Positions 1,561 to 30,374 of a stretch of DNA of 38,340 nucleotides are shown here, piece by piece. The position numbers and the translations under genes are program-made. Where the stretch lies: contig JAMOAB010000083.1 in assembly GCA_023621995.1 (NCBI GenBank), positions 1 through 38,340 on the forward strand, given 5' to 3'. The stretch's first letter is position 1. Each line of letters starts with the position of its first letter. A model generated the notes under the pieces. The model worked only from the letters and a program-made list of their open reading frames with translations, was not told where the DNA came from and did no database searches. The stretch is from Bacillota bacterium (GTDB lineage: Bacteria; Bacillota; Clostridia; Caldicoprobacterales; Xylanivirgaceae).

Positions 1561-1605
1561 ACTAATATGTTTTTGAGAACATAGAGGGATTATTTTACAA
1601 TGTGA

Positions 1606-1679
1606 CGGAGAGTGTAGGATTTGAACCTACAACATCAGGATGAATAATCCATAGCTCTGCCTGGTTGAGCTAACTCTCC
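1606..1679 (-). tRNA. tRNA-like gene, nominal anticodon AUU (Asn-like), weak anticodon stem
   Basis: Read on the minus strand, the acceptor stem GGAGAGT/ACTCTCC is perfect, as are the D stem GCTC/GAGC (GG in the loop) and the T arm GTAGG-TTCAAAT-CCTAC; the discriminator is G. The total length is 74 nt and no CCA is encoded (GTCA follows). With standard spacing the anticodon is ATT (1643-1645 on the plus strand). Only three of five anticodon-stem pairs form, and position 37 is C rather than a purine. Overall layout and discriminator G resemble bacterial tRNA-Asn, which normally has anticodon GUU. Identity is uncertain: it may be a divergent phage tRNA, a decaying copy, or a decoy. Confidence 0.75.
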
Positions 1680-1686
1680 ATATATA

Positions 1687-16530: not shown

Positions 16531-19500
16531 ATGGCAGATAAAAAAGAAGCTACACATTCATTGCGTACTGAAATTGAAATGTTGTTTAAATCTGAGGGTG
16601 CTTCAGATTTAGTAGGAGACATAAATGATATATCAGATCAGGTTCGTAAGTTAACAAATCCAGTGAGGCAACTAACAGATGCATTTAAAGAACTAAATGC
16701 AAGTCCTGTTAAAGACTTAGTTAGGACTTTGGAGAATTTCTCATTAGATTCGGTGGCGGTGGATGCTAGTGACTTGAGAAAAGTATTAGAAAATAAAATA
16801 GCAAGAGCTATAACTAAATCAAAAATTGAGTTTATAGGTGACGAGGGTAGTGAAAGATACCCATTTAAAGTTAAGTTAGGTGCAGATTTTTGGAAGAAGA
16901 ACCAAAAGAATATTACAGAAGCTTTAGCAGAATCTTTTACTAATTTGGAGGTTGATGTTAGTGATATTCCTCCATTGGATAGTAGAGAAATTCTGGCTGA
17001 GTTTCAGAAAAAATTCAATGAGCAAATTGTTGAATTAATTAAAGATGAGGAAGTATTTAGTTTGTACACTAAGGATCCAGGTGTTGATAAAAAGAAGTTT
17101 AAGTATAAAAGAAAGTTTAAATTAGATGAGAAAGCTGTAGATCAAATAATTAGTGCTATAGAGGAAGAGTTTATTAAAGTATTATCTGACCCTGATAATA
17201 TTGTTTTAGAGAATATTCCAAAATTAAATATAAAATCTTCCGAATTAAATAAGGCTGTACAGAAAATACAAGAAAGTATCGGGGATATTGATAGCTTATT
17301 AGGTGTCGAAGTAGAGGCTTTAGATGATTTACCAAATATAGAAGATAAATTGATTGGTTTTAGGAATAACTTGTCTGAGATAATAAAGGAGATAAACATT
17401 CTAGCAGAGCAATTAGAGTCATTGTCAATGGGTAAAATTACAGAAGATGATTTTCAACAAGCAATAGAGTCTATTAATAACTTGAAAGGTAACGTATTGG
17501 TTAAATTAGATGAGTGGGTAAAAGATATTGTTTTAATTGTTGATCATAATTTGGATTTAAGACCTAGTTTGGATTCTTTTAAGGAAAGTATTAATAATTT
17601 AAATAATTATTTTGATAGTGTATTTCAACAACAGATACAATTACTTCAAAATGATATAGAGAAAGTATTGGGAAATATTAAGTCTGAGGAAGATAAGAAG
17701 GATACATTAAAAGGAAAGAAGATTGATATTACCCAATTAATTATAGATGTTATCTCAGAAAATTTAATGGATTCAGATTTTATAGTAGATATTGACATGG
17801 GATTAATTGATGATGTTTTGGGTCAGTGGATATTAGATTTTAATATAGCATTAAGTGAGGATTTAAAAACGTTAACAGATTCTATATCAAAAGATATAGC
17901 AGATGTTTTTGAACAGATATTTGTTGAATTAGATAACACAAGAAATAATATAGAACAAAGTATAAGTGAAATTTTTGGTACTGCTCAGCCTTTGATTGAT
18001 GCTGGAGATTTAGAAGATGTACTAAGGGTTTTAGAACGTGAAATTTATAACTATATTATAGGTACTTTGACGAATGTAACATTGCAGAATATAGGTACTT
18101 TGGATATAGAATTTAAACTACCTAAGTCATTCCAGAGGGATATAAAACAGATCGTGGACAAAAGTATTCGTGAATATTCAAGAAAAATAGTCGATAGTTA
18201 TAAATCTGAGGAATTTGGTGGGGAAGGTATTGAAGAAACAGTAGAGAAGTTAAATAAGCATGCTACAATGTTAGTAAATGCAGTTATGAGAGAAGTCAAT
18301 CAGACTCTTACAGATATACGAAAAGAATTTTTACACTCAGATGATAGGTGGGTGGAGAGTACAAAAAATTTAAAAAAGGTTTTTGATAGAAATGTAGAAT
18401 CTTTAACAAAATCTTATATAAAAGTATTGGAGGATTCTATTAATACTATTATATTAACTGAAGAAAGTTTATCACAGGTACATGATCAGATAGCTGACCA
18501 AATAGCTGAGAGCATAAAGGTGTCGAAGATTGAAGTAGATGAAACTGAAACTACAGTAAAATTAGATAAGATTTATAGACTTATATTAAGCCAAATTACT
18601 AGTGAAATAGCAGAATCTATAAATTATTGGAATCCTAATATAGAAATAAATGAATCAATAGATGGTAGTAAAATATCTCAGAGGCTCACAGAAATGATAA
18701 ATGAAATGTTAGAGTATAAGATTGAAAACTGGGTTAATAATATAAAATATGACGATTCTGGGCTAGATGCTGTTGGTGGAAGAGAAAAATTAAATATTGC
18801 TAAATTATTAGATGATATAATGACAGGTATAGAGGGTGCTTTGCAAAGACAAATAAATAGTTTAATTCAGGAGACAAATAGTTTAGACAATGGTGTATTA
18901 TCAGTAAATGTTACAGATATAATGAACCGAATTGATTCTTTGATTAAAGAAGCTGTATTAAATAGAGTAGAAAAAATATCTTTGGAACAAATTGATTCAG
19001 AAGGATTTAAATTAGATTTAAATAAACCTGTTAAAAAAGCATTAAATAAAATAAAGAAGGTTATAAATGAAGTCACTAATTATGCAATAGCTTCTGTAGA
19101 AGATATGGAAATAGAGGAAGTTGAGTTAAATATTAGAACTAAAAGACTTCAAAATAATATAAATAATTTAATCCAAAAAATTGTTAATGAGAAAGCTAAG
19201 CAAATAACAGCTTATGGTAATCAATTAGTGAGTGAAATTGATGTAGATAGTGAACATTTAGTTGAGTTGAAAAATAGTATAGGTGATATAGTAGATAATA
19301 TGATTGGTGGTTATATTATTGCTGCTGAATCAGTATCAAGTAGTATGTATTCTGAAGAAGAATTATCTAAAATATACACTAAGTTATCCAATGGGTTTGC
19401 AGATTCTTTCTCTATAATGGTAGATGATTTTTTAAATGCAGTAAAGTTAGTTGGAGCCGGGGATTTTAGTATTTCAACATCTAAATTGCACCCAAAAATA

Positions 19501-22500
19501 AGAAGAGCTTTAGCAGAATCCCATGATATGAGTGTTAGGGAGTTTGTTAAAGAGTTTCCTGAGATTAAGGGTGATGATGCTCAGAGAGTGTTAATGCAAA
19601 AAAATGTAGAAATGATAACAAAAGCAATAGATGATGTGATACAATTAAGTGTCAAACAAATGCTCTCTTCATATGAGGATTCTATAAAGCAGGTTGTTAT
19701 TGAACCTGATGAGTCTTTAGTGGAATATATTTATGATAGATTAATTGCTTTGCAGGATACTGTAATAACTAGAGCTAAAAAAATGGTAAAAGATCAATTT
19801 AAGTATTTAACAGAGGAAATAAAGCAGATGAATATTGAAGCCAAAAGCATGGGATATAAACCTACTAAAGCCTTTATAAATGAAGTATCAAAAGCAACAG
19901 GAGGAGCTCGGGCAAGTACTAAACAATCTGATTTGATGACTAAAGATATTTTAAAAGGTATGGATATAAAAATAGAGCATGCTTCTATGAGTGGGGCGGA
20001 TGTAGTTGCAGATGGGTTAAAGATAGATAGTAGTTCTGTAGAAATACCAGAAATAAATGATTTAGTTACAAAGGCTAGTTCAGTTGTGGTGGATGGGAAG
20101 GTAGTAGATCTAAATATTGATAGATTTCCAGTAGAAAAAATTGTGACACCAATTGAGAATTTATTAACATCAGAATTACCTTTTGATGCAGATACCCCAC
20201 ATTTAGTTAATTATTTAGATGATATAACAAAATCTTATTTTAGTCCTTCTAATGTTTTTAAGAGGGGTTATGAACGGTTTGATGTAGAAGATATTTTTTT
20301 GAGGAATGTTGTTGAGCCATATGAGGGGTTGTTTGAGGGAGTTACTAAAAATATGGCTAAATATTTCGCAGTAGGTTATATGATGAGACTCCCAATTAAA
20401 GCTATAACTGAAGCAAATAAAATTGCTTCTGAGCTTGATTATCATTTAGCAAAAGCAAGACAGAATATTATAATAAAAGATCCTCAGATGACAACTACAG
20501 CACAAAGAATTGTGTATGATAGATACAAAGCTGAGGGACTGGATGTTAGTTCAAAAGAATTTAGAGAAGATGTTAATAAAGAAGCTGCTAATTTAAGAAA
20601 TATTATGAATAACCAAATGTCTGAGTATCTTTTAAACATTTCAAAAGCATACTATCAAGAGATAGCAGATGTTGGAAGGTACTATAGTATAGCTTCAAGG
20701 AGATCAAGAGATCCATATGAGGCATTAACAAAGACAAGAGAAATTGCAAAAATTGCTGCGGTTGAGGAAGATTTGGATACAGATTTTGCAGCTACAGGTT
20801 TGGAAGCATTGGCTGCTCAATGGGGTGTGGACATAGCTGAATTGGATAAATACACCAATATGTTATTAAAAACAGCTATGCTCTCAAATACTACAGTTAC
20901 TGATTTGTTAATGGCACAGAGAGATACTGCTGCAATGTTTAAGAGTAGGTTGAAGGGGCTAGAGGACGAGGAAGCTTTTGCTACTGCTATGGCATTATCT
21001 TCAATGTTTGTTCAAGCTACAGGAAAATCAGGCAGAGAAGCAGGTACATTCTGGAGAAATATATTACAAAAACCATATGTAAAAGACAGTAGAAAATTTT
21101 TAGAGCAAGCTTCTCAGTTAGAGGGATTTGAAAATTTGAGCCCTTATTATGTAGACGAGACAGGTCAGAAAGTACAGAAAGATTTTCTAACCATGTTTTC
21201 CAATATACTAGAAACAGTTGTTAAAGTTGATGACCCATCTGCTATGTCTGTACTATCTGAAATATTTCCAATTCGTACCATTGGTGGGGCGGAGTCAGTG
21301 TCTGCACTAGTAGAAGATTTAAAATTAGATTTAGAAAGATCAATAGAGATACTAAAAGATATGGGTGAACTTGATGAGGATGTAACTGTAGATACAGCTA
21401 ATATAAGAGAAGTAATCGAAAAATATATAGAAAACATTATGGAAGTTACCGAAGAGGATATAGGAATGTATTTAGCTGGGCTTCAAGATACAACTCAGTT
21501 TGCTGCAAAAGGTTTACAAGCTCAGTGGCAATCTACTGTTTATAGTATATTTAGAGAATTAAAGGAAGAAACTAGTTCTGTAATGACTTATTTCACAGCG
21601 ATACTCCGTAAATTTGAAGAAAATAGTGATAAACTATCAGAAGTAATAGGTGTCTTCATGAAGTTAGGTATTTCTTATTTAGGAAAAGATGTAATCAACA
21701 GAGTAATTCAAAAAGGCATGGAAGCACCTATAAAATTAACTGATATGCAAAAAGAAATGGCAAATAAATATATGGAGTTACAGGCAAGGGACAAAGCTTT
21801 AGGTATACGAGAAGAAACATTAAGGTATCCTTTGGTGGAATATTCATTAAGAATGGCAGAAGTGGATAAAGATATTACAAGATTGCAGGATGAGAGACAT
21901 CAACTTCATACATTTATACAAGATATGGAAGCTAAAGAAGTGTTAACTGATGAAGATAGAATTGAATTAAGAAAAGCTGAAATGCAACGTGATATGTATG
22001 ATGATCAATTAATAAAACTTAGGAATACCTATAATCAGTTAGAAAAAAATGTTGATAGATTAACTACTGAATATAAGGATGTAATTAATGCTCATAGAGA
22101 AGTCGTCCAATTAGGTAAGTTTTTACAGGGCAGTATGGGGGCAAGGAATGTAGAAGAGTTAAAAGACAGTTTTGCAAATTATTTAAGGAATACAGAGATT
22201 TACAGTAAGGTTGCCCCGTTAGCTTTAAGAAGTACTTTGGAGCATGATGATCAATGGTATGAACAGTTGCATAATAGAAAAGCCGAAATAGAGAATATGT
22301 TAATATCCCAGCAGAGAGAGATGTTTAAATACTTTACAGATACCCAAGGTGAAAAGTCTTATGAAATATTGAAGAATATTTTGGGGGATGAGTTTGAAAA
22401 TAAATTTTATACTTTAGGTGAGGTACTTTCTGAAGAAACAATGGATGTATTGAGCAAGATAAACAAGCACATGGAATTTGATGAAGAGTATGCAAAAATG

Positions 22501-24579
22501 CGAAAAAATTTTGATAGAACTTATAAGGAATTAAATGCGATCAATTCAGAGTTAATAGATTTAAATAATGAGAGATTAGAAGTAGAAAGAGCTATATTTG
22601 AAGCTACACGACCTAAGCTGGTTGGTCATCAATTCACAGGTGGTGACCATGAAATTCAAACAGTGGCAAGACCAATAGATGAAGTTGTGGCTTCATATAG
22701 AGATTTACTACCTGCTTTTGGTATTGATTTAGACAAGTTTGAGGGAGGTTTGGATCAGTTAGCTTCTCTGTTTAAGGAAGGGAAATTTGATGTTGATGAA
22801 TATGAAGATTCACTAAGAGAAGTATCTCAGCAATTAGGAATAGCTGATAGGGATTTTGGTCGGTTTAAGGAAATAATACGAGATTTAAACAATGAAATAA
22901 ATTTAGGTAAGAAGAGCTTGTATGAATATATAGCAGCATTAGAGGCAGCAGGTACAAAAGGTGAAAAACTAAGAATAGGTTCATTGTTGAAGAAAACAGA
23001 TGGTGGAGAGGGCGAAGTTGAAGGTACTGAGCCAAAATCAGATGTTACAGGTAAAGGATTATTGGGCTTAGGGGCATTATCTGTTCTCGGTAAGGGGGCT
23101 GGAAAAGCAGGAGGATCAGGTGGTAAGATAAAAGCATTTGGTAAAGGGTTAGCTTTGAGTGTTAAGGGAATGATCTCAAGAATTCCCCATATGATGTTAA
23201 TGTATGCTGGAGTATCCACATTAGGTGCTATATTAGGTGGGTTAACAGAAAGAAGTATGACAGAAGCAGAAAGACTATCAATGGAAGCAGATAAGTTAGA
23301 AAAGCATATAAATAAAGCGGTTGGCTGGAAAGTAGAGGTAGATGATAGTGGCATCAAACAATTAGGTAAGAAGATAGTTAATGTTACTGGTGCTGTATGG
23401 GGCGGAGCATTAAATCAATTAAATAGATGGATGGGTGGAACTGCACCTTCGTTTAAAGAAACTTGGGCTATACGAAAAGAAGCTTGGAAGCATCCGGAAC
23501 TAACAAAAGATGATTTAAGATTACAATTAGAAGAGCAATTTGATGTTCAATTAAAACGTGCTAAAGCTAACTATAAAAGGCAGCAAGAATATTTAAGTAA
23601 GAATCCATTTGTAGATCCTACTACTGGGGGGCTAAGAGAAGTAGGAGATCCTTATTTTCAGACAATGCCATTGGAAGATTTAATGGAGTTTCTAGATAAA
23701 AGAATGAAGGAACTGAATAAGGCTTTAACTGAGAGTGACGCATTGTTTACTAAAGAAAAAGTTAAAATATTAATGAGTGGGCTTTCTAACAATTCAAAAG
23801 AATTAAGAGAAGCAATAAAAAATCATTTGGATAGAAATATATCAGAAATGACTAGATTAGTTAATGAACTTAAAGAATATCTTCCTAGGTTGGTTCCTGG
23901 TACAGAGGCTCATACAGGGATGCAGTTACAAATATTAGATTTAGAGAATAGGATAGCGGAAGCAGAATTACAGAAGTTTGAAACAGATTTTTCAGAATTT
24001 GATGAAATTATGGAAAGATATAATCGACAATCTACACTTATTCAGACTAAGTATGATATTAAAAAATATGATGCTATATTATCAGGAATACAGAAAGAGT
24101 CTTCAGCTATTAAACAAATAGAGAAAAAAATGGCTGAAGAGCAGGTTAGAATGATAACAAGTATACAAAATAAATTGGATAATTTAAAGCAACAATATGC
24201 AGATAAACCTGATCAAAGAGAGAAAATATTGATTCAAATTCAACAATTAGAAGCTGATAAAAAACGAATTTTGACCGATATAAAAGATAGGATGAGTGAA
24301 GGTTTATCTACATTTAATCTTCCATCTGATATAAAACCTATAACATATTATGAGGCTATGACAAGGAATAACACTCATAGAAATATGACTGTAAGGGCAG
24401 GGGATGCAATAGTAAATGTTAATATAGATAAAATGTCAGGATCAGATGCAGATTTAGATAGGTTGAGTCGAGCGGTCAGTAGTGCTGTGGCTCAGGCACA
24501 GAAAAATTTTGTTAGACAATTTGCTAATGATGTTAAATCTGGTATGGGTAACAACTATTATAGTTGGAATAATTATTAA
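16531..24579 (+). CDS. Tape measure protein (2682 aa)
   Basis: The largest gene, starting at ATG 16531 behind GAGGTG. It is almost entirely helical, with charged coiled-coil segments through residues 1-1400 (many ISDIND/LENK-type heptads) and again ~1700-1900 and ~2350-2620. A Gly/Ala-rich, hydrophobic stretch near 2175-2245 (GLLGLGALSVLGKGAGKAGG, then MLMYAGVSTLGAILGG) is the likely membrane-active region that helps DNA cross the host membrane. No lysozyme, peptidase or SLT motif is visible inside it, unlike many Gram-positive phage TMPs. Role: sets tail length and is ejected first. At ~0.15 nm per residue it implies a tail near 400 nm (family rule, inference). It ends at the terminator 24578-24600. 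Confidence 0.93.
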   Translation: MADKKEATHSLRTEIEMLFKSEGASDLVGDINDISDQVRKLTNPVRQLTDAFKELNASPVKDLVRTLENFSLDSVAVDASDLRKVLENKIARAITKSKIEFIGDEGSERYPFKVKLGADFWKKNQKNITEALAESFTNLEVDVSDIPPLDSREILAEFQKKFNEQIVELIKDEEVFSLYTKDPGVDKKKFKYKRKFKLDEKAVDQIISAIEEEFIKVLSDPDNIVLENIPKLNIKSSELNKAVQKIQESIGDIDSLLGVEVEALDDLPNIEDKLIGFRNNLSEIIKEINILAEQLESLSMGKITEDDFQQAIESINNLKGNVLVKLDEWVKDIVLIVDHNLDLRPSLDSFKESINNLNNYFDSVFQQQIQLLQNDIEKVLGNIKSEEDKKDTLKGKKIDITQLIIDVISENLMDSDFIVDIDMGLIDDVLGQWILDFNIALSEDLKTLTDSISKDIADVFEQIFVELDNTRNNIEQSISEIFGTAQPLIDAGDLEDVLRVLEREIYNYIIGTLTNVTLQNIGTLDIEFKLPKSFQRDIKQIVDKSIREYSRKIVDSYKSEEFGGEGIEETVEKLNKHATMLVNAVMREVNQTLTDIRKEFLHSDDRWVESTKNLKKVFDRNVESLTKSYIKVLEDSINTIILTEESLSQVHDQIADQIAESIKVSKIEVDETETTVKLDKIYRLILSQITSEIAESINYWNPNIEINESIDGSKISQRLTEMINEMLEYKIENWVNNIKYDDSGLDAVGGREKLNIAKLLDDIMTGIEGALQRQINSLIQETNSLDNGVLSVNVTDIMNRIDSLIKEAVLNRVEKISLEQIDSEGFKLDLNKPVKKALNKIKKVINEVTNYAIASVEDMEIEEVELNIRTKRLQNNINNLIQKIVNEKAKQITAYGNQLVSEIDVDSEHLVELKNSIGDIVDNMIGGYIIAAESVSSSMYSEEELSKIYTKLSNGFADSFSIMVDDFLNAVKLVGAGDFSISTSKLHPKIRRALAESHDMSVREFVKEFPEIKGDDAQRVLMQKNVEMITKAIDDVIQLSVKQMLSSYEDSIKQVVIEPDESLVEYIYDRLIALQDTVITRAKKMVKDQFKYLTEEIKQMNIEAKSMGYKPTKAFINEVSKATGGARASTKQSDLMTKDILKGMDIKIEHASMSGADVVADGLKIDSSSVEIPEINDLVTKASSVVVDGKVVDLNIDRFPVEKIVTPIENLLTSELPFDADTPHLVNYLDDITKSYFSPSNVFKRGYERFDVEDIFLRNVVEPYEGLFEGVTKNMAKYFAVGYMMRLPIKAITEANKIASELDYHLAKARQNIIIKDPQMTTTAQRIVYDRYKAEGLDVSSKEFREDVNKEAANLRNIMNNQMSEYLLNISKAYYQEIADVGRYYSIASRRSRDPYEALTKTREIAKIAAVEEDLDTDFAATGLEALAAQWGVDIAELDKYTNMLLKTAMLSNTTVTDLLMAQRDTAAMFKSRLKGLEDEEAFATAMALSSMFVQATGKSGREAGTFWRNILQKPYVKDSRKFLEQASQLEGFENLSPYYVDETGQKVQKDFLTMFSNILETVVKVDDPSAMSVLSEIFPIRTIGGAESVSALVEDLKLDLERSIEILKDMGELDEDVTVDTANIREVIEKYIENIMEVTEEDIGMYLAGLQDTTQFAAKGLQAQWQSTVYSIFRELKEETSSVMTYFTAILRKFEENSDKLSEVIGVFMKLGISYLGKDVINRVIQKGMEAPIKLTDMQKEMANKYMELQARDKALGIREETLRYPLVEYSLRMAEVDKDITRLQDERHQLHTFIQDMEAKEVLTDEDRIELRKAEMQRDMYDDQLIKLRNTYNQLEKNVDRLTTEYKDVINAHREVVQLGKFLQGSMGARNVEELKDSFANYLRNTEIYSKVAPLALRSTLEHDDQWYEQLHNRKAEIENMLISQQREMFKYFTDTQGEKSYEILKNILGDEFENKFYTLGEVLSEETMDVLSKINKHMEFDEEYAKMRKNFDRTYKELNAINSELIDLNNERLEVERAIFEATRPKLVGHQFTGGDHEIQTVARPIDEVVASYRDLLPAFGIDLDKFEGGLDQLASLFKEGKFDVDEYEDSLREVSQQLGIADRDFGRFKEIIRDLNNEINLGKKSLYEYIAALEAAGTKGEKLRIGSLLKKTDGGEGEVEGTEPKSDVTGKGLLGLGALSVLGKGAGKAGGSGGKIKAFGKGLALSVKGMISRIPHMMLMYAGVSTLGAILGGLTERSMTEAERLSMEADKLEKHINKAVGWKVEVDDSGIKQLGKKIVNVTGAVWGGALNQLNRWMGGTAPSFKETWAIRKEAWKHPELTKDDLRLQLEEQFDVQLKRAKANYKRQQEYLSKNPFVDPTTGGLREVGDPYFQTMPLEDLMEFLDKRMKELNKALTESDALFTKEKVKILMSGLSNNSKELREAIKNHLDRNISEMTRLVNELKEYLPRLVPGTEAHTGMQLQILDLENRIAEAELQKFETDFSEFDEIMERYNRQSTLIQTKYDIKKYDAILSGIQKESSAIKQIEKKMAEEQVRMITSIQNKLDNLKQQYADKPDQREKILIQIQQLEADKKRILTDIKDRMSEGLSTFNLPSDIKPITYYEAMTRNNTHRNMTVRAGDAIVNVNIDKMSGSDADLDRLSRAVSSAVAQAQKNFVRQFANDVKSGMGNNYYSWNNY

Positions 24580-24607
24580 GCCTGCAATTATTGCAGGCTT
24601 AATTTTA
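24578..24607 (+). terminator. Intrinsic terminator after the tape measure gene
   Basis: AAGCCTGCAA (24578-24587) pairs perfectly with TTGCAGGCTT (24591-24600), 10 bp, with loop TTA; AATTTTA follows. The TMP stop TAA (24577-24579) overlaps its left arm. It ends the connector/tail transcript just before the moron promoter. Confidence 0.85.
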
Positions 24608-24616
24608 TGGTATAAT
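24588..24616 (+). promoter_or_regulatory. Extended -10 promoter of the membrane-protein moron
   Basis: A consensus -10, TATAAT (24611-24616), preceded by TGG gives the extended TGnTATAAT form. TTATTG (24588-24593) lies 17 nt upstream as a weak -35 and overlaps the terminator hairpin. Transcription would start near 24623, a few nt before the coding start at 24638. Confidence 0.65.
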
Positions 24617-24637
24617 TATATTATGGGGGTGGGCTAT

Positions 24638-25051
24638 GTGAGTAAAGGTGCTAGAATTTTTTATATGTTTTTTGTTTTATTAGTAATAATGATAGCTGTT
24701 GATACTTGGTATTATAATAAGACAGGGATTACGTATTTAGATGAATTAGAAATATTTCTAGTAGGTCTAGTTTTTGATTTGATTTTATCAGTTTTTATTA
24801 TTTGCTTGTGGGACTATGTTTCAATAAGATTGGATGTTTCCAATAGTCCATTGTGGAGGATATTTAAAGGAGCAGTAGTATCAACTAGTTGGTTTTTGGC
24901 TGCTATTGTAGCAATAATGATTATATTTGGTATATTATCAGACATGAACTCTCAAGGGTTTTTGACTAAGGATTTTATAAAGATTATTTTTATTTTATGG
25001 GGAATTATTACAATTATAAATGCAATATACTCTCTTAAAAAAGACTCATAG
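24638..25051 (+). CDS. Small integral membrane protein, moron (137 aa)
   Basis: I choose GTG 24638 (MSKGARIFYMFF) behind GGGGGTGGG; ATG 24623 in frame would add five residues but has no RBS and lies too close to the promoter. Four hydrophobic segments are visible at residues ~8-25, ~40-62, ~82-104 and ~115-132. There is no signal peptidase site and no holin hallmark. It differs from its neighbours in hydrophobicity and in having its own promoter and terminators on both sides, the definition of a phage moron expressed independently of the lytic programme. Such membrane morons often block superinfection. A holin is the main alternative, but its place between TMP and baseplate genes, without an endolysin beside it, argues against that. 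Confidence 0.75.
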   Translation: MSKGARIFYMFFVLLVIMIAVDTWYYNKTGITYLDELEIFLVGLVFDLILSVFIICLWDYVSIRLDVSNSPLWRIFKGAVVSTSWFLAAIVAIMIIFGILSDMNSQGFLTKDFIKIIFILWGIITIINAIYSLKKDS

Positions 25052-25128: not shown

Positions 25129-25752
25129 ATGTCAAGACAAAAACCTTATGTAAATCCATTAGATGATGATAAACATAAGTATAAAAAAAGATTGTTTGTG
25201 GATGTAGGAATGAAGTTTGAGGAAGTTAATGCACGTATTGTTGAACCATATACCCCACCATCACCAGTGCCTAAGGTTGCTAAAATTGATATATTAGAGG
25301 GACCTTCCCATCTACATCATTCAGGGATTTCAGCATATAAATCAACATTTGGATTGTTATTTTTAGATAGGCGTTCTTATGTTGAATATATGAGTTATAT
25401 AGGTGGTGCTCATAAATTTTATGATGAAAGAGGACAAATTTATATTGGAACAGTTGATGATGTCAAACCTAGGGCAGTAGAAGCAAATACACGATATTTG
25501 TTAGATGTAACTTTGATACTTATAAAAAAAGATCAGTACGATAAAAAGGATTTTTTTCAATTTCAAGATATACAAGGGCATTGGGCGGAGGATCAGATAA
25601 GTGAGATGGCAAATTTAGGAATATTATCTGTTACTACTGTGGATGGAGAGCCCGTATTGTATTTTAGACCTAATGACTATACTACTCGAGCTGAGTTTGT
25701 TGCAATGTTAAATAGAACAAGAAGATTATTAGAGAAAGTATTAAGGGAGTAG
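25129..25752 (+). CDS. Distal-tail-like protein with C-terminal SLH domain (207 aa)
   Basis: ATG 25129 behind GGGGGTG. Residues ~50-140 are a beta domain (KIDILEGPSHLHHSGISAYK ... ANTRYLLDVTLILIKKDQYD), which in this slot directly after the tape measure could be a Dit-like tail-tip protein. Residues ~143-203 match an S-layer-homology module: FQDIQGHWAEDQISEMANLG then YFRPNDYTTRAEFVAMLNR, with the GHWA start and the F-x-P...TRAEF ending of the family. SLH modules bind pyruvylated secondary cell-wall polysaccharide. This protein has a single module, whereas stable S-layer anchoring normally uses three. Next gene is in the same frame after TAG-ATA-AAT but has its own ATG and RBS. Confidence 0.8.
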   Translation: MSRQKPYVNPLDDDKHKYKKRLFVDVGMKFEEVNARIVEPYTPPSPVPKVAKIDILEGPSHLHHSGISAYKSTFGLLFLDRRSYVEYMSYIGGAHKFYDERGQIYIGTVDDVKPRAVEANTRYLLDVTLILIKKDQYDKKDFFQFQDIQGHWAEDQISEMANLGILSVTTVDGEPVLYFRPNDYTTRAEFVAMLNRTRRLLEKVLRE

Positions 25753-25758
25753 ATAAAT

Positions 25759-27183
25759 ATGGGCAGATTTTTAGATGTCACTTCTAATAAATGGTATTAT
25801 AATGAAATAGTTGAAGCTTCAAACATTATTTTAGAGGATGGTGATCCTCTAATATTAGGGATACCATATAATGTTTTTGAAGAAGGTAAACCATACATTT
25901 ACCAGGAATTTAAAGCTACAGCAGGGCAAAAAGATTTTACATTAGATAAAGCCATTAAGCCAACTAATGATAATCCTTTATTTGTTTATATAAATGGAGT
26001 CCAGACTGTATATAAGGAGATTAGTACAGAGGGTGGGAAAACAAAAGTCACATTGTATAGTGGGGCACCTGCAAATGCTATTGTAGCATTTGCAAGTTAT
26101 GGCGTTCCAAAATTAGATGAATTTGGAAGACCCACACAAACTAGCAGTGAAAGTATAAGGTATCCGAATAAGAGATTAAAAGGATATGAAAATTATTACT
26201 ATAATCCTTTTTATCGTGATAAAAGGGAGTACGTTTCAGTATTTGGTAAATATCTAAAACGTGCTAATATAACCCAAGAAGAGTGGGATGCAGACCCAAA
26301 TAGAAGGCAAGAGGTACTGAGGAAACATATTAGTTATCATGATGATGTGTATTTTATAGCTCCTGATGGTATTTTGCATGTTCCATATAACCTAAATGGT
26401 GTTACTTGTAAAGTTACTTATCTTACTAATGAGGGTTATATAAAAGTGAATACAGAGGAGGTTACCCCTGTAACTGATACTGTATTATTTTATAATCGAG
26501 TATTCCCTGATGCTTATATTACAAGGGCAGAAGCTTTTGTGCTTGTGGACAGATTAAGAAGAACTTTTTACAGTAGATTTTCTGATACAAAGGCTTCAAC
26601 ACATATACTTGATGTTGAAATAGAAGCATATGATTGGCAAAGAGCAGTTAGTATACCTGGTAGATATGATGTAGGTAAAAATGATATGGAAGTTTATTTA
26701 AATGGTAAAAAACAAAAAGTTGGTGTAGATTATGAAGAATATGATGGTTATACTATCATATTTAAAAATTATTTAAAAGAAGGCGATATTGTAAGGATAA
26801 AAAGAGAGAAGACAAAAAGTAATCATTTAGCAGATGTTGGAATTTACACTAAATATTATAGAGTTGATAAAGGTACCTACATATTGGTTAATGGTACTGT
26901 AGGTAATGAAGATCCTAGAAAAGATTCATGGTGGGCACCTCATATACTTGCACTGGAGCAAGAAATGTTAAGTGATGGAGAATTAATGGTAAATGGAATG
27001 CCAGTAAAAGGAATTACATTACATGAAGGTATAAAAGCTGTTCCTGTTAATTCGATGAAACATCCTGTTCAGGAGGGAGAGGGTGGGGAGGTGTGGTTTA
27101 TGCCTAATACATTTATGACTAGAGCACATGCTGTTACCATATTAAATAGATTCAGGAAACTAATGATGGAAAGGTTCTTGTAG
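25759..27183 (+). CDS. Baseplate protein with split SLH modules and beta insert domains (474 aa)
   Basis: ATG 25759 with AAGGGAG 10 nt upstream. It begins with an SLH-like first half (RFLDVTSNKWYYNEIVEASN) and contains SLH-like second halves at ~247-268 (FPDAYITRAEAFVLVDRLRR) and ~446-467 (FMPNTFMTRAHAVTILNRFR), with a matching first half near 391 (WWAPHILALEQEM). Between the halves lie beta domains with a shared pattern, FVYINGVQTVYKEI (~70-83) and EVYLNGKKQKVGVDYEEYDG (~313-332), an 'NG' beta repeat seen in phage tail proteins. With the preceding gene's module it could complete a three-module SLH-type pocket. Function proposed: binding to cell-wall polysaccharide at the tail tip. SLH halves are clear; the split arrangement is my interpretation. 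Confidence 0.75.
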   Translation: MGRFLDVTSNKWYYNEIVEASNIILEDGDPLILGIPYNVFEEGKPYIYQEFKATAGQKDFTLDKAIKPTNDNPLFVYINGVQTVYKEISTEGGKTKVTLYSGAPANAIVAFASYGVPKLDEFGRPTQTSSESIRYPNKRLKGYENYYYNPFYRDKREYVSVFGKYLKRANITQEEWDADPNRRQEVLRKHISYHDDVYFIAPDGILHVPYNLNGVTCKVTYLTNEGYIKVNTEEVTPVTDTVLFYNRVFPDAYITRAEAFVLVDRLRRTFYSRFSDTKASTHILDVEIEAYDWQRAVSIPGRYDVGKNDMEVYLNGKKQKVGVDYEEYDGYTIIFKNYLKEGDIVRIKREKTKSNHLADVGIYTKYYRVDKGTYILVNGTVGNEDPRKDSWWAPHILALEQEMLSDGELMVNGMPVKGITLHEGIKAVPVNSMKHPVQEGEGGEVWFMPNTFMTRAHAVTILNRFRKLMMERFL

Positions 27184-27191
27184 GTGATATT

Positions 27192-30100
27192 ATGCAGTAT
27201 TTATCAAAAGACTTTAAAAATAAATTAAAAGATAATTTAAAAGCAGGGCAATATTCTCGACCAAGATGCATTGTAGAAGTGGATAGGATGGCATTTATTC
27301 CTGGAAAAATTGAACAGTTAACTATAGATGATTTTGATCTAGATACAGAGGTAGAGGTTCAGCGAGAGTGGATAGAGGCAAATGAAAGTGGTTTGTTTAA
27401 TGGAAGCACAACTATTAATACAGATAATATTGTTTTTCCAGTCCAGGGAATGTCTTTAAGTAATGTTACAAGTGAGTTTGGTGCAGCAAGGAGTGGAGGG
27501 AGAAAGCATCAAGGTATTGATATAGCATTGAATGAGAAAGCTTTTCCTGAGCGTAGGGGTGTAGGTACTCCTATATTAGCAGCATGGGGTGGAAAAGTTA
27601 GCACTGTAAGAAAATCTAATTTATACAATGGATATGGTATTTATGTAGATATTATCCACCCCAATGGATTAAGAACGAGGTATGCACATTTAGATAATGC
27701 TTTAGTTTCAGTTGGAGATGTGGTGTCACCTGGACAAGTAATTGGTGAAGGTGGTAATACTGGTAGTGTTAGAAGTAGTGGGAAAGCAGTGTTAGGGTCA
27801 TATAGTGATACAAGTTCTATGAGATATAAGGGGTATGGTGCTCATTTACATTTTGAAGTACATGAAAGTGTTGATGATAAGGGTAATTATAGAGCAGTTA
27901 ATCCTCGTCCTTATTTAGAAGGCAAGAAAAAACCTGCTACTTCTATATCTCAGCAGGGGGACGGAGTAATAAAACAGAGGTCTGTTGTTGGGTACAAAAA
28001 TGCAACTAGATTAAATGAGACATTTTTTAAGAAAGATTGGTATAAAAATCCTAAGTATACATTTAAGGATAAATTTTTAAAACTATCATCTCTTGAAAAG
28101 AATACAATAGGTGGTGTGCATAATTGGAATACACTAACATTTAAAAAGAAACTTTTTTCCAGAGGTATAACAACTGGAATGAATATAAAAATGAAGATGC
28201 CAAAAGCAGGATATATGGATATTGTTATAAGATCTAATTTTTCTAGTGCAGATGGTGATGAATTTTACATTACTATAAATGATCCTAAGAAACGCTCAGT
28301 GAATTTAAAACAGTTTAGTGGTTTAGGGAGAGTACAAGAATTAAAAAAGATTTATGTACCTTCAGGAGATGTAAATATAGATATAACTATAAAGTGGGGC
28401 GGAAAAGATGCAGTTAAGAATGGTAAAAAGACAGATAAAAAATTTTCTATAGGTCGGATAAAAATAGTAGATATAGTACCCACAAAAGAAGTTGCTAGTC
28501 ATTTTTATTTAGACAAAGGCTACAGCACAAAACAAGAAGATTTTATAAAAACACAGGGTGGTTATTGGGAAGAACGGGAGATAGTTGATTTTGTATTTTC
28601 TAATGAGCCCCAAGTATTTGATTTATCTGTGGGCGAATTTGTGTACACTGATACATTAACATTGGATAAGGTTAGTTCTTGTGATATAGTCACTTCGTTG
28701 GAGCAGGATTCAGCAGAAGCTATTATTACTATACCAAATCCTAATGGGTTTTATAGCCCTGAGTATAATCCATACTATTTCCCCGAGCTTTTTAATCCAA
28801 GTCCATTTTCATATTTTCTAGGTGGGTTTCAAACAGGGACTTTGTCTAATAATACACCTATAAGAATTTATATGGGATATGGTGAAGAGGTTATTAGGGT
28901 ATTTACAGGATTAATAGACAAGATAGATGTAAGAAATGATCCACCAACGATAACTATTACTGCAAGAGATATGTATAAAAAGATTTCTGATAAAGTGTTA
29001 ACTGAAACTAAACAGTATCCTGCAATAGATTTAATAGATGATTTTCCTGGTGGAACCCCTCAATCAGAGAATGCTTTCATTAATGAAATAGCCCCAGGGG
29101 CTATGGAAACTTATAAACAATATGGTATTTTACCTTCTATTACAATTGCTCAGGCAATTCTGGAATCTGGGTGGGGAAAACATAGGATAGGAAACAATAT
29201 ATTTGGGATAAAAGCAGGGGATGGATGGAAGGGAAAGACTGTAACTAGAACAACTACAGAGTATGTAAATGGACAATGGGTATCAGTAAAATCTACTTTT
29301 AGAGATTATGATTCTGTTGCAGATTCTATTAAGGATCATGCTAAATTGGTTGGGACAGCATCTAGGTATGAACCAGTTAGGAATGCTAAGGATTATAAGG
29401 AAGCTGCTAGAGCTCTGCAATCTGCTGGTTACGCAACAGACCCTAAATATGCACAAAAATTAATAAATATAATTGAGCAAAATAATTTAACCATGTTTGA
29501 CGAAGCAACTGAAGGTGGGGTCACAATGTCTGGTGGAGAAGTTGGGGGAGAAAAAGTAGCTTGGCTTAAATCAGCAGTAGTGCAGGATTTAATAGCACAT
29601 GCAGGTATGTTTGGATGGCGGAGGCATCCAGAAGATTTAAAATATCCTGATGCTGTCATTGAAGAGTCTTATTTAATTTCTATAGATCAGGAAAGTGGGA
29701 CTTATGTAAGAGCTGTACCTGGGAAAGAGGGGGAATTTGAGGTAGTTAATTTAGAAGCTTCACCCACCCCAAAAGGATGGATGAACCCATATACAGATGA
29801 GTATGGAAGAACATTTGTGCAATATCAACATCGGGTGGGGGAATGTATAAGTGAAGTATTGAAAGATACTCACTATAGATCTTATTGTGATAGGTATGGA
29901 ACATATAGATTAGAAACTATGGATTATAACAAACCGATAGTAGATACTTACACGTACAGAGAGAATTTAGTTATGGTGGATAAAACAATAGATTTTTCGA
30001 GGGCTCGAAGTCATATAATTGTGGTGGATGAAGAGGGCAACAAGTCAAGTTTTTTAGACAAAGAAATTTTAATGGAGCTAAAGGGTGAAGTAAGAACTGC

Positions 30101-30374
30101 CTCTGTGTTAGTCCCATGGGCTAAATCATACGAAATTCGTAAATTAGTTGCTTCTAGATTATTTGAAGATATGAAAAGGGTGTGTCGTTCGGTTCAGGTA
30201 GTTACTCCCTGTAACCCAACTATAGACTTGTTAGATAAGGTAAGAGTTATTGACAAAGATTCTTCTACAAACGCTGTTTATACAGTAAAGGGTATTAGAA
30301 GAAGCTATAGTCCGGAATCTGGTCTAACACAACATCTAGAACTGTTTTGGTCTGGGAAAGGGACGGTGATATAG
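27192..30374 (+). CDS. Tail hub protein with M23 endopeptidase and GH73-type glucosaminidase (1060 aa)
   Basis: ATG 27192 behind AGGTGAT. Domains in order: short N-terminal hub part (1-75); M23/LytM peptidase ~80-235, with HQGID (His106, Asp110) and HLHFEVH (His218-x-His220) as zinc ligands and catalytic His; a beta-sandwich ~285-430; baseplate hub segment ~480-620 (SCDIVTSLEQDSAEAIITIP ... FTGLIDKIDVRNDPPTITIT); FlgJ/GH73-like glucosaminidase ~630-775, with QAILESGWGKH (Glu658 candidate acid) and NNIFGIKAGDGW; then the rest of the hub ~795-1060 (VDKTIDFSRARSHIIVVDEE, RVIDKDSSTNAVYTVKGIRR). Expected action: local digestion of both glycan and peptide links at DNA entry. Two different hydrolases inserted in one hub is uncommon. 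Confidence 0.88.
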   Translation: MQYLSKDFKNKLKDNLKAGQYSRPRCIVEVDRMAFIPGKIEQLTIDDFDLDTEVEVQREWIEANESGLFNGSTTINTDNIVFPVQGMSLSNVTSEFGAARSGGRKHQGIDIALNEKAFPERRGVGTPILAAWGGKVSTVRKSNLYNGYGIYVDIIHPNGLRTRYAHLDNALVSVGDVVSPGQVIGEGGNTGSVRSSGKAVLGSYSDTSSMRYKGYGAHLHFEVHESVDDKGNYRAVNPRPYLEGKKKPATSISQQGDGVIKQRSVVGYKNATRLNETFFKKDWYKNPKYTFKDKFLKLSSLEKNTIGGVHNWNTLTFKKKLFSRGITTGMNIKMKMPKAGYMDIVIRSNFSSADGDEFYITINDPKKRSVNLKQFSGLGRVQELKKIYVPSGDVNIDITIKWGGKDAVKNGKKTDKKFSIGRIKIVDIVPTKEVASHFYLDKGYSTKQEDFIKTQGGYWEEREIVDFVFSNEPQVFDLSVGEFVYTDTLTLDKVSSCDIVTSLEQDSAEAIITIPNPNGFYSPEYNPYYFPELFNPSPFSYFLGGFQTGTLSNNTPIRIYMGYGEEVIRVFTGLIDKIDVRNDPPTITITARDMYKKISDKVLTETKQYPAIDLIDDFPGGTPQSENAFINEIAPGAMETYKQYGILPSITIAQAILESGWGKHRIGNNIFGIKAGDGWKGKTVTRTTTEYVNGQWVSVKSTFRDYDSVADSIKDHAKLVGTASRYEPVRNAKDYKEAARALQSAGYATDPKYAQKLINIIEQNNLTMFDEATEGGVTMSGGEVGGEKVAWLKSAVVQDLIAHAGMFGWRRHPEDLKYPDAVIEESYLISIDQESGTYVRAVPGKEGEFEVVNLEASPTPKGWMNPYTDEYGRTFVQYQHRVGECISEVLKDTHYRSYCDRYGTYRLETMDYNKPIVDTYTYRENLVMVDKTIDFSRARSHIIVVDEEGNKSSFLDKEILMELKGEVRTASVLVPWAKSYEIRKLVASRLFEDMKRVCRSVQVVTPCNPTIDLLDKVRVIDKDSSTNAVYTVKGIRRSYSPESGLTQHLELFWSGKGTVI

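Follow-up and report, generated by a model that had tools for sequence, protein, structure and literature searches.

Layout of the tail-tip locus

We analysed a stretch of DNA of 38,340 nt, contig JAMOAB010000083.1 of a Bacillota bacterium assembly (GCA_023621995.1), referred to below as the window. Two genes, P1 and P2, are sited there between a tape measure gene and a hub gene, and an open reading frame check confirmed the coordinates (25129-27183) and reading frames that a first-pass annotation had given for these two tail genes. The features of the locus, including its S-layer-homology (SLH) modules, are as follows.

16531..24579, +, tape measure protein, 2682 aa, upstream of P1 (size and position; the gene at the same place in phage Jenst is annotated as tape measure protein)
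25129..25752, +, P1, 207 aa, Dit/tail-tube-like N-domain followed by C-terminal SLH module 1 (ORF; PF00395, E 4.6e-6; phrog_32188, E 2.3e-45; fold matches)
25141..25542, +, P1 N-domain, residues 5-138, tail-tube/distal-tail-protein fold (VIA-align fold search; a second model was similar)
25561..25743, +, SLH module 1, P1 residues 145-205, with Trp13 = W152, Arg43 = R187 and V168 at the Gly29 position, the glycine being lost (Pfam match, alignments)
25759..27183, +, P2, 474 aa, SLH modules 2 and 3, both broken by beta inserts (ORF; phrog_29574, E 1.2e-29; alignments; predicted model)
25765..25872, +, SLH module 2, first half, P2 residues 3-38, with D6, Trp13 = W12 and Gly29 = G34 (alignments)
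25894..26463, +, insert in module 2, P2 residues ~46-235, a beta domain resembling the connector domains of tail fibres and tailspikes, and a further small domain (model strands; fold matches)
26500..26583, +, SLH module 2, second half, P2 residues 248-275, FPDAYITRAEAFVLVDR, with Arg43 = R256 (alignments)
26596..26820, +, insert in module 3, P2 residues 280-354, a beta domain like the N-terminal domain of the T7 gp17 fibre, lacking in the Jenst branch (fold matches; gap in Jenst-type P2)
26911..26997, +, SLH module 3, first half, P2 residues 385-413, SWWAPHILALEQEMLSDGELMVNG, with Trp13 = W391 and Gly29 = G413 (alignments)
27094..27174, +, SLH module 3, second half, P2 residues 446-472, FMPNTFMTRAHAVTILNR, with Arg43 = R455 (alignments)
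27192..30374, +, hub gene next after P2, 1060 aa, with M23 peptidase and glucosaminidase domains, a wall-degrading tip (PF01832, E 2.2e-38; PF01551, E 2.8e-18)

The gene order tape measure, P1, P2, hub is common to the window, locus L002 and Jenst. In the window, P2 starts 6 nt after the stop codon of P1 and in the same frame. A TRAE helix closes P1 and the next FxDV motif opens P2, so that the sequence reads as if one tandem SLH trimer had been split by a stop codon. Biological read-through of this stop was considered and judged unlikely, because the two genes are out of frame in most relatives. A small ORF with several hydrophobic stretches (24482-25051, membrane protein) overlaps the end of the tape measure gene. 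It looks like an insertion in the window phage, since the tape measure gene of L002 adjoins P1 almost directly.

P1 joins a distal-tail-like fold to SLH module 1

In a Pfam profile search, P1 residues 145-190 scored 27.0 bits against PF00395 (E 4.6e-6), for which the curated cut-off is 20.8 bits. The family behaved alike: PF00395 was matched by 34 of 35 P1 relatives, at E values down to 3.6e-13, and a P1-family profile matched the SLH chain of the S-layer protein Sap (6bt4) at E 4.6e-7, covering parts of all three Sap modules. Module 1 also has a conserved DG..V..FRP loop that is missing from ordinary SLH modules.

The N-domain of P1 matched the Pa193 baseplate protein (VIA-align Z 9.8), E217 (9.5), the Dit of lactococcal phage p2 (8.4), the AFP baseplate chain 6rao_G (8.0) and SPP1 Dit (7.4), where a Z under 8 taken alone is weak. 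Because this domain has the tail-tube/Dit fold and the gene comes after the tape measure gene, P1 is most readily interpreted as a distal tail protein (Dit) of the 'evolved' kind, with an added SLH domain. P1 lies where a Dit gene is expected, after the tape measure and before the tail hub, with the small extra ORF behind the tape measure gene in the window. Evolved Dit proteins, for example those of skunaviruses, carry carbohydrate-binding modules (PMC10688798). P1 is like them in placing a Dit-fold domain with an added domain of glycan-binding type between tape measure and hub; it differs in that the added domain is SLH, is helical and is completed by a second protein. Baseplate proteins of the Afp7/Pvc7 and XkdP types have a LysM wall-binding fold beside a tube-fold domain. 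P1 shares with these tube initiators the tube-fold N-domain (6rao_G), the wall-binding-family domain that follows it and a similar gene position, but it has SLH instead of LysM and would belong to a long non-contractile tail, as Jenst is a siphovirus by electron microscopy (PMC4909266).

P2 carries two interrupted SLH modules

The presence of SLH sequence in both tail genes, which the first-pass annotation had proposed from the letters alone, held up on different evidence for each protein. The PF00395 profile settles the matter for P1 and leaves P2 short: the P2 of the window alone scored 10.8 bits, and its two modules with the inserts removed scored 15.6 and 16.0 bits (E 0.017 and 0.012), still under the cut-off. 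The case for P2 comes from its family. An SLH match at E<=1 was found for 24 of 35 P2 relatives (best 7.4e-5), and the P2 profile matched Sap SLH at E 0.013. Across the 35 diverse relatives the SLH hallmarks, namely the Asp of FxDV, Trp13 and the Arg of TRAE, are invariant or nearly so (D6, W12, R256, D276, D359 and R455). In the family, module 2 is made up of FLDVTSNKWYY...PLILG and FPDAYITRAEAFVLVDR, and module 3 of SWWAPHILALEQE...MVNG and FMPNTFMTRAHAVTILNR. The split halves described earlier were therefore correct in part: SWWAPHILALEQE is the first half of the FMTRAHA module, but the first half of the YITRAEA module, at P2 residues 1-38 (RFLDVTSNKWYYNEIVEASN...), had been missed. The earlier count of about three modules was right, with one in P1 and two in P2.

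We modelled P1 and P2 with AlphaFold2 as a read-through fusion across the stop codon, which served as a modelling device only. The model had a mean pLDDT of 80.8, about 90 over most of P2, and a pTM of 0.68, and it placed one helix pair per SLH module at the expected places. A fold search with either model listed no SLH structure. Beta domains filled these lists and the inserts break the modules, so the lists say nothing about SLH. In the insert of module 2, model residues 255-323 lie within matches to tailspike and capsid beta domains, and the insert of module 3 matched the LME-1 tail protein 9efk_AE (Z 10.8) and the T7 gp17 N-terminal domain 7boz (Z 9.7). The second alignment used as model input has a small flaw, in that seven P1-only rows have their SLH part set on module 3.

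A Dit-like protein with one SLH module and a partner with two is thus a well-supported architecture. That the P2 halves resemble SLH by chance, with the only true module in P1, would fit their scores under the Pfam cut-off even when stitched, but is very improbable given the near-invariant Asp, Trp and Arg at SLH positions, the family and Sap matches, and the predicted helix pairs in the right places of P2.

The gene pair recurs in phages and prophages

Scanning for sequence patterns recovered full-length relatives from about 40 viral and 35 genome contigs. We aligned 62 distinct P1/P2 pairs, in which the layout of one plus two modules recurs in phages and prophages, with P1 and P2 as close neighbours in nearly all. 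The records give the hosts as Paenibacillus, Brevibacillus, Aneurinibacillus, Bacillus (pumilus, tequilensis, chungangensis), Anaerovirgula and Desulfocucumis. Among the relatives, gp155 and gp154 of Brevibacillus phage Jenst are orthologous to P1 and P2 (39% and 30% identical); gp155 is named SLH domain-containing in RefSeq, whereas gp154 is 'hypothetical', and a literature search found no published analysis of SLH modules in gp154.

A few loci depart from the common layout. The Anaerovirgula prophage (L006/L059) has about 0.9 kb between P1 and P2, seemingly holding remnants of a small antirepressor-like gene (judged from the reading frame only), and in the prophage of Paenibacillus sp. OVF10 (L074, 10680-12086) P2 is split into three ORFs by frameshifts. 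The P1 profile also recovered other proteins through their SLH part (L110, L098, L104 and L117), probably host surface proteins.

Two of three putative ligand grooves keep their residues by alignment

In SLH trimers each groove combines Arg43 from one module, Gly29 and adjoining residues from the following one, and Trp13 from the remaining module, and the grooves of Paenibacillus alvei SpaA hold 4,6-pyruvylated ManNAc (Blackler et al., 2018; PMC6081394). Gly29 allows a backbone flip needed for binding, and a Gly29 double mutant of SpaA had no detectable binding; Arg43 has a structural role as well (PMC6081394). Paenibacillus SlhA has Gly29 in SLH2 and SLH3 only, with Arg43 and Trp13 (or Tyr) in all three modules, and probably binds in grooves 2 and 3 (PMC6081394).

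We read these positions from the alignments. All three modules of the window have Arg43 and Trp13 (R187/W152, R256/W12 and R455/W391). Gly29 aligns with V168 in module 1, where it is lost, with G34 in module 2 and with G413 in module 3, with at least two extra loop residues around the GIIxG glycine. As aligned, the residue pattern is exactly that of SlhA, and by Arg43, Gly29 and Trp13 as known from SpaA and SlhA two of three grooves are kept: G2, built from the Arg of module 1, the Gly of module 2 and the Trp of module 3, and G3, built from the Arg of module 2, the Gly of module 3 and the Trp of module 1. The window proteins share FxDV, Trp13 and TRAE in three modules with the SLH trimers of SpaA, SlhA and Bacillus anthracis Sap; unlike those, their modules are shared by two tail-operon proteins, modules 2 and 3 are broken by beta domains and the loop of module 1 is altered.

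Since two grooves keep the SpaA ligand residues, the tail tip most likely docks on pyruvylated polymer. P1 would bring one SLH module and the tail-tip protein P2 two, interrupted by beta domains; where they meet, the three modules would form a single heteromeric SLH trimer, whose grooves G2 and G3 would hold 4,6-pyruvylated ManNAc as in SpaA. The tail tip would then dock on the pyruvylated secondary cell wall polymer of the host, the anchor of the S-layer and of other SLH proteins, and docking would set the hub with its M23 and glucosaminidase domains onto the wall. We assign this explanation as a whole a probability of roughly 0.5. As for function, binding of pyruvylated polymer is the likeliest, at about even odds.

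Groove residues follow CsaB in isolate hosts

The main rival to polymer docking is that the phage took its SLH fold from a host surface protein and uses it today solely as a structural brace tying P1 to P2 and the hub, the grooves being weakly constrained relics. We regard this as possible but doubtful. It draws on several losses. Gly29 is gone from module 1 in nearly all family members and from module 3 across the Jenst branch, so named for Jenst, whose P2, in contrast to that of the window, has no beta insert in module 3 and whose pair keeps groove 2 only; no groove remains in loci L022-L026 either. The LysM domain beside the tube fold in Afp7- and XkdP-type proteins, together with the match of 6rao_G to the P1 N-domain, fits a brace as well.

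The hosts provide a test of the two readings. CsaB was found over its curated cut-off in 26 of 28 genomes carrying the prophage, and those 26 have 25 to 136 SLH matches. The two without it, B. pumilus GM3FR and B. tequilensis, have no SLH proteins apart from at most the phage's own module. Regardless of the prophage, CsaB occurs in 144 of 293 genomes belonging to the window's class. At least one groove is kept in 25/25 intact gene pairs of CsaB-positive isolates (the frameshifted L074 being left out) and in 0/2 of CsaB-negative isolates. Both pairs from CsaB-negative hosts have Gly29 of module 2 replaced by Pro and the Arg of module 3 by Lys, and that of B. pumilus also has the Arg of module 2 replaced by Lys. 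A sister phage in CsaB-positive B. chungangensis keeps the glycine and one groove. The difference between 25/25 and 0/2 would arise by chance with a probability of ~0.003 if the cases were independent; the 25 positive cases come largely from Paenibacillus and Brevibacillus, which makes them non-independent, and the two negatives form one clade, so that the groove loss with CsaB absence counts as a single evolutionary event. Among 397 genomes drawn from the order of B. pumilus, the P1 family occurred only in B. pumilus itself, and CsaB-negative hosts therefore stayed at these two.

Two patterns in the same alignments argue against the brace. In nearly all CsaB-positive hosts the phage retains the module 2 Gly29. 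Phages without it have P or S there, and because such phages exist, this glycine is not required for assembly. Where module 2 does lose it, in the Anaerovirgula copy (L006), module 3 retains Gly29. The three-module set nevertheless persists in the phages of CsaB-negative B. pumilus and B. tequilensis. This in turn favours the brace, as it implies a need for the SLH fold without a ligand. Polymer binding and a structural brace can be compatible, the fold being kept even where the groove is lost. The retention of groove residues with CsaB-positive hosts and their loss with CsaB-negative ones suggests, as far as alignments can tell, that the phage holds on by the S-layer anchor polymer. We tentatively propose, at somewhat under even odds, that a virion-borne heteromeric SLH trimer is a receptor-binding device for pyruvylated polymer, with the groove kept while the host pyruvylates and decaying after a move to non-pyruvylating hosts. 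Across the family, Arg43 is replaced by Lys mainly in Bacillus-group phages. Two Trp are missing from L088 (P. terrae PIC167), which is perhaps a prophage in decay.

The bin of the window lacks CsaB

One result runs against docking on pyruvylated polymer. Profile searches of the window's own bin (G000) found no other SLH protein, no member of the pyruvyl transferase family PF04230 and no CsaB. Three family relatives of the bin gave no CsaB match, and among the matches listed for genomes of the same order none was over the CsaB cut-off. The first-pass annotation had named a host without SLH proteins and pyruvylated wall polymer as refuting its idea, and by these searches the bin fits that description, although it is only a putative host for a contig of this kind. 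The contig holds phage-type sequence only, plus an IS605-type transposase and one tRNA. Since the bin lacks CsaB and the window nevertheless keeps two grooves, either the phage contigs were mis-binned or the groove is kept in a CsaB-less host.

We looked for links between phage and bin. The ~143 CRISPR spacers of the bin matched the window over at most 18 nt, against 16 nt for reversed-spacer controls, and no spacer hits the window. No 16S rRNA was found in the bin, some of whose short contigs read only N in the copy used. Its RpoB is nearest to those of Anaerovirgula (~77%) and Natronincola (~76%).

Alternatively, the ligand of the SLH trimer may not be pyruvylated ManNAc but a different wall component, such as another polymer made by hosts like the window's bin. 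Two grooves kept despite the lack of CsaB in the bin and the surrounding order would fit such a ligand, as would the DG..V..FRP loop of module 1. We consider this improbable, as the bin is only a putative host of the contig and the groove residues follow CsaB in isolates. The earlier suggestion that the S-layer anchor polymer is the receptor is partly supported: the three modules, the residues in two grooves, CsaB in 26/28 hosts and the groove loss in the CsaB-negative clade speak for it, and the bin without SLH proteins or CsaB speaks against it.

Relation to known phages

Our literature search turned up no report of a tail protein with SLH; the phage SLH cases it returned were the endolysin LysBT1 (PMC12285257) and an early-expressed protein of cyanophage S-PM2 (PMC2984593). 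LysBT1 is alike in having a phage-encoded C-terminal SLH together with a wall-degrading function, but it is a lysis enzyme and not a virion tail protein. Phages Thrax1/2 need csaB (PMC9703825), and AP50c is cited there as needing it too. For these csaB-dependent phages, that paper and the AP50c work it cites proposed that the receptor is the S-layer proteins rather than the polymer. If a tail tip itself bears an SLH trimer, it would be a direct and testable candidate for the virion component that recognises the pyruvylated polymer. If docking on that polymer is true, the phage grips the wall by the handle that also holds the host's S-layer, and the locus would show how an S-layer anchor came to be taken up, divided between two genes and interspersed with fibre domains. 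Such a tip could also serve as a natural module for targeting the walls of S-layer bacteria.

Other features of the contig and bin

Near the left end of the contig lie an IS605/TnpB-type transposase gene (76-1104; PF01385, PF07282), of which no second copy was found in the bin, and a tRNA-Asn with the unusual anticodon ATT (1604-1680, minus strand). The bin has long CRISPR arrays near cas1 genes, with ~59, 54, 12 and 23 repeats (L146 and L152 on G000:C173; L153 and L154 on G000:C119). Another contig of the bin (L141, G000:C60; 20.5 kb) is probably a further piece of the same large temperate phage. Its translations read as a serine recombinase, a SNF2-type helicase, dUTPase, thymidylate kinase, pieces of ribonucleotide reductase, and amidase and sigma-factor-like proteins, and its tetranucleotide profile is close to that of the window (0.86).
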